Below are positions 7,094 to 8,644 of a stretch of 64,000 bases of DNA, in pieces. A program made the position numbers and the translations under genes. Each line of letters starts with the position of its first letter. Position 1 is the stretch's first letter. This DNA comes from an uncultured SAR86 cluster bacterium. GTDB lineage: Bacteria > Pseudomonadota > Gammaproteobacteria > Magnimaribacterales > Magnimaribacteraceae. Below the pieces are notes generated by a model, which worked only from the letters and a program-made list of their open reading frames with translations, was not told where the DNA came from and searched no databases. The stretch covers positions 82,557 to 146,556 of the forward strand of contig CACBBD010000002.1 of the NCBI GenBank assembly GCA_902537425.1, given 5' to 3'.

Positions 7094-8644
<1,551 letters not shown>

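Follow-up and report, generated by a model that had tools for sequence, protein, structure and literature searches.

Paired base changes in 16S rRNA helix 14 alter the EUB338/338R target site in SAR86 bacteria

Results

In the 16S rRNA gene of an uncultured SAR86 cluster bacterium, two base pairs of helix 14 have been swapped by compensatory changes. This hairpin lies within the target of the probe EUB338 and the primers 338R and 341F, and none of the three probes of the EUB338 set matches the site perfectly. The gene lies in a window of 64 kb (the whole stretch of DNA analysed here), in one operon with the 23S and 5S rRNA genes (Table 1). The E. coli 16S reference reads ACTCCTACGGGAGGCAGCAG from its position 338; against it, a MAFFT alignment gave four differences, at 340, 341, 348 and 349, confirming the positions named in the original prediction, which had also quoted the letters of the site exactly as they stand in the window (ACATCTACGGATGGCAGCAG). 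The differences amount to two compensatory swaps, with 340:349 changing from U-A to A-U and 341:348 from C-G to U-A. The further claim that these paired changes preserve the hairpin is backed by covariation, phylogeny and folding, as detailed below.

Table 1. Coordinates of the features in the window (16S positions in E. coli numbering).
Feature	Position	Strand	Evidence or remark
16S rRNA gene	7092..8644	+	RF00177, 1557 bits, full length, model 1-1533
EUB338/338R/341F target, ACATCTACGGATGGCAGCAG (338-357)	7438..7457	+	
Helix 14 hairpin CAUC-UACG-GAUG (339-350)	7439..7450	+	covariation and fold
A340, partner U349 at 7449 (E. coli U-A)	7440..7440	+	alignment, covariation
U341, partner A348 at 7448 (E. 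coli C-G)	7441..7441	+	alignment, covariation
UACG loop of helix 14 (343-346)	7443..7446	+	unchanged, as is the closing pair C342-G347
A348 and U349, 3' halves of both swapped pairs	7448..7449	+	alignment, covariation
23S rRNA gene, same operon as 16S	8931..11829	+	RF02541, 2884 bits, model 1-2925
GAM42a probe target, AAACGTTGTAGGAAGGC	9950..9966	+	23S rRNA; two mismatches
5S rRNA gene, same operon as 16S and 23S	11893..12007	+	RF00001, 81 bits, model 1-120
gltB, large glutamate synthase subunit	25314-29966	-	

The assembly containing the window comprises approximately 1.34 Mb in 33 contigs (a MAG, 74% complete), and the whole of it holds one 16S gene with one altered site and zero copies of the canonical site. 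The gene has the features of a functional 16S: it matches the bacterial SSU covariance model over its full length, lies in an operon that includes 23S and 5S, and retains helix 14 pairing and the residues A160, C342 and G347 of the h8-h14 triple. As one part of an overall explanation that we consider very probable (see Discussion), the gene would encode the functional rRNA of a SAR86 bacterium. The 16S-23S spacer (8645-8930) contains no tRNA gene, and ARAGORN found zero tRNA genes within the 64 kb window.

Membership in SAR86 is indicated by 98-100% 16S identity to contigs titled SAR86 cluster bacterium (AG-447-A08 99.1%, BS30m-G42 99.0%, AG-422-M05 99.7% and AG-319-O13 98.0%, with further near-identical contigs so titled in AG-920-D21, AG-461-L06 and AG-343-J11). 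Families of SAR86 average 1.18-1.66 Mb (1.05 Mb for CHAB-I-7 when corrected) with a GC content of 31-40%, and a cultured isolate has one rRNA operon (PMC11582366); the assembly (1.34 Mb at 74% completeness, one 16S) and the window (36.7% GC) show the same traits. The order SAR86 / Magnimaribacterales forms four families with small genomes in our genome set, as that study describes. It places Magnimaribacteraceae (SAR156; GTDB family SAR86), some genera of which have no proteorhodopsin, as sister to RedeBAC7D11. In our rRNA trees the window's family (f1) was sister to a second family (f3), and rhodopsin matches were found in 0 of 4 genomes of g2, a genus in f1. Family f4 consists of one genus with very small genomes, which fits CHAB-I-7. 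Going by the published description, f1 is probably Magnimaribacteraceae, f3 RedeBAC7D11, f2 the Suzuki family and f4 CHAB-I-7.

To map the site across the order we surveyed 203 genomes, 141 of which had it. Within f1, the CAUC/GAUG stem was present in all 19 genomes of genera g1 and g4 for which the site is sequenced (15 of g1, including that of the window, and 4 of g4). Other paired stems occurred in g2 (CGUC/GACG; 4 genomes) and g5 (CUUC/GAAG; 2 genomes), and the canonical stem in one g6 and one g7 genome. All 10 f4 genomes with the site had CUUC/GAAG; families f2 and f3 were canonical throughout. Four different paired stems thus occur among close SAR86 relatives. In an even draw of Gammaproteobacteria, 82 genomes matched; 4 of these were SAR86, one match (G453) looked like a non-rRNA chance hit, and the sampled non-SAR86 genomes were canonical in 77 of 77 cases. 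The helix 14 change is not unique within the class, however: CUUC/GAAG was present in a few other gammaproteobacteria among the matches listed (Psittacicella, L063; weevil endosymbionts, L082 and L123).

We next consider the pairing constraint across bacteria. A scan with the pattern AC-N-TCTACGGA-N-GGCWGCAG, which leaves 340 and 349 free, was run on one genome per species and returned at least 116 loci, at least 106 of them rRNA by BLAST. Among the matches listed, all 106 rRNA loci with U341/A348, drawn from many phyla, had a Watson-Crick pair at 340:349 (U-A in 61, A-U in 40, C-G in 5), compared with about half expected if the two columns were independent, although the loci are related and a nominal probability is not to be taken at face value. 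Of the non-rRNA chance matches listed, 10 in number, 1 had a Watson-Crick pair and 2 a G:U pair. In 29 distinct aligned rows, helix 14 was 100% paired versus 83% when shuffled (0/500), and cells with both sides changed numbered 18 against 4.0 expected, with every slid control lower. The CAUC/GAUG hairpin folded at -4.4 kcal/mol (z -6.7; canonical stem -6.6), and both half-mutants lost it (0 and -0.6 kcal/mol). A160, C342, G347, the loop and C339-G350 were unchanged in every SAR86 row covering them, variation being confined to the two inner pairs.

The swaps in helix 14 are part of a wider pattern of change. Of 19 positions that are invariant across E. coli, f2, f3 and f4 yet changed in the window, 8 form four pairs (340:349, 442:492, 679:711 and 940:1343), where the last three assignments are those of what we take to be the standard 16S model. 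Next to the probe site, the pair 52:359, which links window position 7459 with the strand of helix 5, likewise covaries within SAR86 (C-G in f2; U-A in f3, f4 and g6; A-U in the window), hence a 3' flank of GTTAAG rather than GTGGGG. Elsewhere in the gene, window position 8294 (E. coli 1192) has G in place of C, with G1064 unchanged; G1192 was found in every g1, g2, g4 and g5 row covering it, and C in g6, f2, f3 and f4. In other bacteria, changes at C1192, C1192G among them, have been associated with resistance to spectinomycin (PMC9471086), and by analogy SAR86 ribosomes with G1192 may be naturally insensitive to the drug.

Next, we asked how many times the stem has changed. A 16S-only tree with h14 removed did not separate the genera. 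On the rRNA-operon tree the canonical g6 grouped with g2; a single clade of g1, g4 and g2 was rejected (p-AU 2e-29), and one that also included g5 gave p 0.02. On the GltB tree, a clade of g1, g4, g5 and g2 was rejected (p 5e-4) and one of g1, g4 and g5 was not (p 0.07). This second tree shows gene transfer, since an f3 sequence (G054) falls inside f1. The branching order therefore rests on the rRNA-operon tree and a transfer-affected GltB tree, and the count of origins is correspondingly uncertain. At least two origins of the altered stem are nearly certain, f4 being a separate family, and three are likely; the alternative is gain followed by reversion, and given the GltB transfer parallel origins are likely rather than proven.

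Two side observations concern these trees. Identity of the gltB product was mostly 73-100% across f1 and f3 (66-70% in some partial g6 and g2 copies) and approximately 40-46% in f2 and f4, which suggests that the gene has been transferred between SAR86 families or that these carry different paralogues. A g5 operon (L020), the 16S of which is 95% identical to that of the window, fell inside g1 on a long branch of the rRNA-operon tree; it is possibly a chimera or a product of 16S/23S recombination.

We then compared the window with widely used probes and primers. It has 4 mismatches to EUB338, 3 to EUB338-II, 2 to EUB338-III, 4 to 338R and 2 to 341F; the original prediction had given the counts for EUB338, EUB338-III and 341F, all correctly. 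The two mismatches to EUB338-III are one G:U wobble and one C:A. Of the four to 338R, two are near the 3' end of the primer (3 and 4 nt away), and 341F (S-D-Bact-0341-b-S-17) is mismatched at its 5'-terminal base and forms a G:T wobble 10 nt before its 3' end. Genus g2 has at least 4 mismatches to every member of the EUB338 set and to 338RPL. By contrast, 27F, 515F-Y, 785R, 806RB, 926R and 1392R match the window perfectly (primer sequences beyond those printed in the cited papers are given in what we take to be their usual form). Primer 338RPL, with its sequence taken from PMC10986988, has 2 mismatches to the window, a wobble 4 nt from the 3' end and a C:A. The gammaproteobacterial 23S probe GAM42a, which the original prediction did not cover, does not match the window perfectly either: the window, g6 and every g1 and g4 locus checked that has the site show 2 mismatches to it, against three in g5, one in g2 and none in f3.

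Discussion

We found that a site often treated as universal in bacterial 16S rRNA has been rewritten in SAR86 by changes that come in pairs. The explanation we favour, with high confidence, is neutral compensatory drift. The two inner pairs of helix 14 have been replaced by compensatory changes, and the loop, C339-G350 and C342-G347 have been kept. On this reading, purifying selection would maintain the structure while the sequence drifts; the lineage would have a fast-evolving rRNA in which other pairs have been swapped in the same way, and the stem would have been replaced more than once within SAR86. Helix 14 forms the intersubunit bridge B8 with helix 8, uL14 and bL19, and the pair C342-G347 makes the h8-h14 base triple with A160; G347U disrupts this triple and raises miscoding (PMC6379664). 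With the loop, basal pair and closing pair kept, the hairpin should still dock on helix 8 and uL14/bL19 and form the bridge, and ribosome function is probably unchanged. Our preference for drift rests on what has stayed the same (A160, the closing pairs and the loop) and on the finding that no L14/L19 residue sets altered lineages apart from canonical ones.

We also looked for co-evolution of the protein partners. Across 37-38 SAR86 genomes, no uL14 or bL19 column separated altered from canonical lineages, bar a nearly empty end column, so this candidate was rejected. The uL14 gene was not found in the window's 74% complete MAG, meaning that the partner proteins were judged mainly from relatives.

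A reading in which helix 14 was rebuilt at least three times independently in SAR86 while frozen in the other sampled Gammaproteobacteria, such that bridge B8 is under relaxed or altered selection and decoding fidelity or subunit dynamics measurably differ, appears to us unlikely. Also improbable, in our view, is an adaptive change of the bridge that tunes decoding accuracy or how it interacts with uL14, bL19 or RsfS, a silencing factor. Point changes in this bridge element do alter fidelity (PMC6379664), and the stem has changed repeatedly in SAR86 and in 0 of 77 other sampled Gammaproteobacteria; but A160, the closing pair and the loop have stayed the same, no uL14 or bL19 residue tracks the stem, and the pairs that arose differ from genus to genus (A-U, G-C, U-A), a pattern suggestive of drift limited by the need to pair. 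Among the matches listed, unrelated phyla with other lifestyles have these stems too.

An artefact of assembly, binning or sequencing, or a decaying rRNA pseudogene, is very improbable. The source genome is indeed a fragmented MAG, but the site recurs in independent assemblies (including G005, 1.592 Mb in one contig) and in named SAR86 genomes of other projects, with 16S identities of 97-100% within g1 and g4, and this recurrence across unrelated datasets refutes the artefact reading; moreover, the full-length 16S-23S-5S operon is the only copy and its changes are perfectly paired. Recombination from a phylum already carrying CAUC/GAUG, e.g., Planctomycetota or Patescibacteria, where identical 12-nt stems exist, we regard as practically negligible, given SAR86-like flanks (GGCCCAGAC...GCAGCAGTTAAGAATATTGG, where many possible donors have GGCTGCAG), other paired states of helix 14 in sister genera and the absence of any visible foreign tract in the aligned rows.

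The altered site matters chiefly for detection. The original prediction had held that FISH and V3-V4 surveys could under-detect such an organism. The mismatches behind this concern are confirmed by count, but the V3-V4 part was overstated, since 341F is affected only at its 5'-terminal base and by a G:T wobble and a strong loss is not a safe prediction. Judged from these counts, FISH and V1-V2 surveys are the more exposed. It had also been allowed that the motif might belong to a well-described clade already covered by degenerate probes; SAR86 is well described, yet the finding stands, because none of the EUB338 set, 338R and 338RPL covers the window's site. Probe EUB338-III has stained cells with 2-3 mismatches until 65% formamide (PMC5446981), and g1 and g4 may therefore still be picked up at ordinary stringency. 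Median ocean coverages of 0.887 for 341F and 0.913 for 338R (PMC8269242) mean that some marine taxa are already known to mismatch these primers, and identification of a cultured SAR86 isolate with 515Y/926R (PMC11582366) fits their perfect match. Mismatches at both 338-357 and the GAM42a site imply that bacterial and gammaproteobacterial FISH probes may both under-report the lineage.

By metagenome read recruitment, the mostly uncultured SAR86 bacteria are reported to account for approximately 2-6% of the microbial community in the surface ocean (PMC11582366). Of the four SAR86 families, two have members that mismatch the whole EUB338 set (all f4 genomes with the site and most f1 genera, most f1 genera mismatching GAM42a too), and 338RPL has been used in PMC10986988 and PMC7575717. 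SAR86 could therefore be under-counted in FISH and V1-V2 time series, the size of any such bias being inferred. A cheap remedy would be to adapt a probe or primer to the altered site, or to use the perfectly matching V4 or V4-V5 primers. The molecular evolution is ordinary, and the methods caveat is moderately useful for an abundant marine group; SAR86 also offers a clean natural case of a supposedly universal site evolving by compensatory change. Mismatch of SAR86 to EUB338, 341F or 338R was not stated in the literature searched, most subscription papers and all supplements lying outside that scope.

Paired variants at 338-357 are already known in other phyla. Among the closest precedents is the CACC-UACG-GGUG form of Planctomycetes and Verrucomicrobia (the EUB338-II / EUB338-III variants): it changes the same site, turning 340:349 to A-U and defeating EUB338 (PMC5446981; 338F-3A12T in PMC3445835, reported there in Verrucomicrobia and others), but it keeps C341-G348, whereas the window swaps 341:348 to U-A and so has 2 mismatches to EUB338-III. 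In PMC3445835, 338F-4T11A (CUUC/GAAG) is reported in various phyla; it shares the window's 341:348 swap from C-G to U-A and is the form found here in f4 and g5, but it is without the 340:349 swap, whereas the window has both. The variant 338F-3C4T11A12G, reported there as specific to Cyanobacteria, has both inner pairs swapped, as in the window, with C-G rather than A-U at 340:349. An identical 12-nt CAUC/GAUG hairpin occurs in Rubripirellula, Pirellulales, Anaerolineales and Patescibacteria members among the matches listed, although these belong to unrelated phyla with other flanks, many with GGCTGCAG instead of GGCAGCAG. In the notation of PMC3445835 the window's form is 3A4T11A12T, of which we found no mention in the part of that paper available to us, and it is a further combination of the pair swaps already described there.
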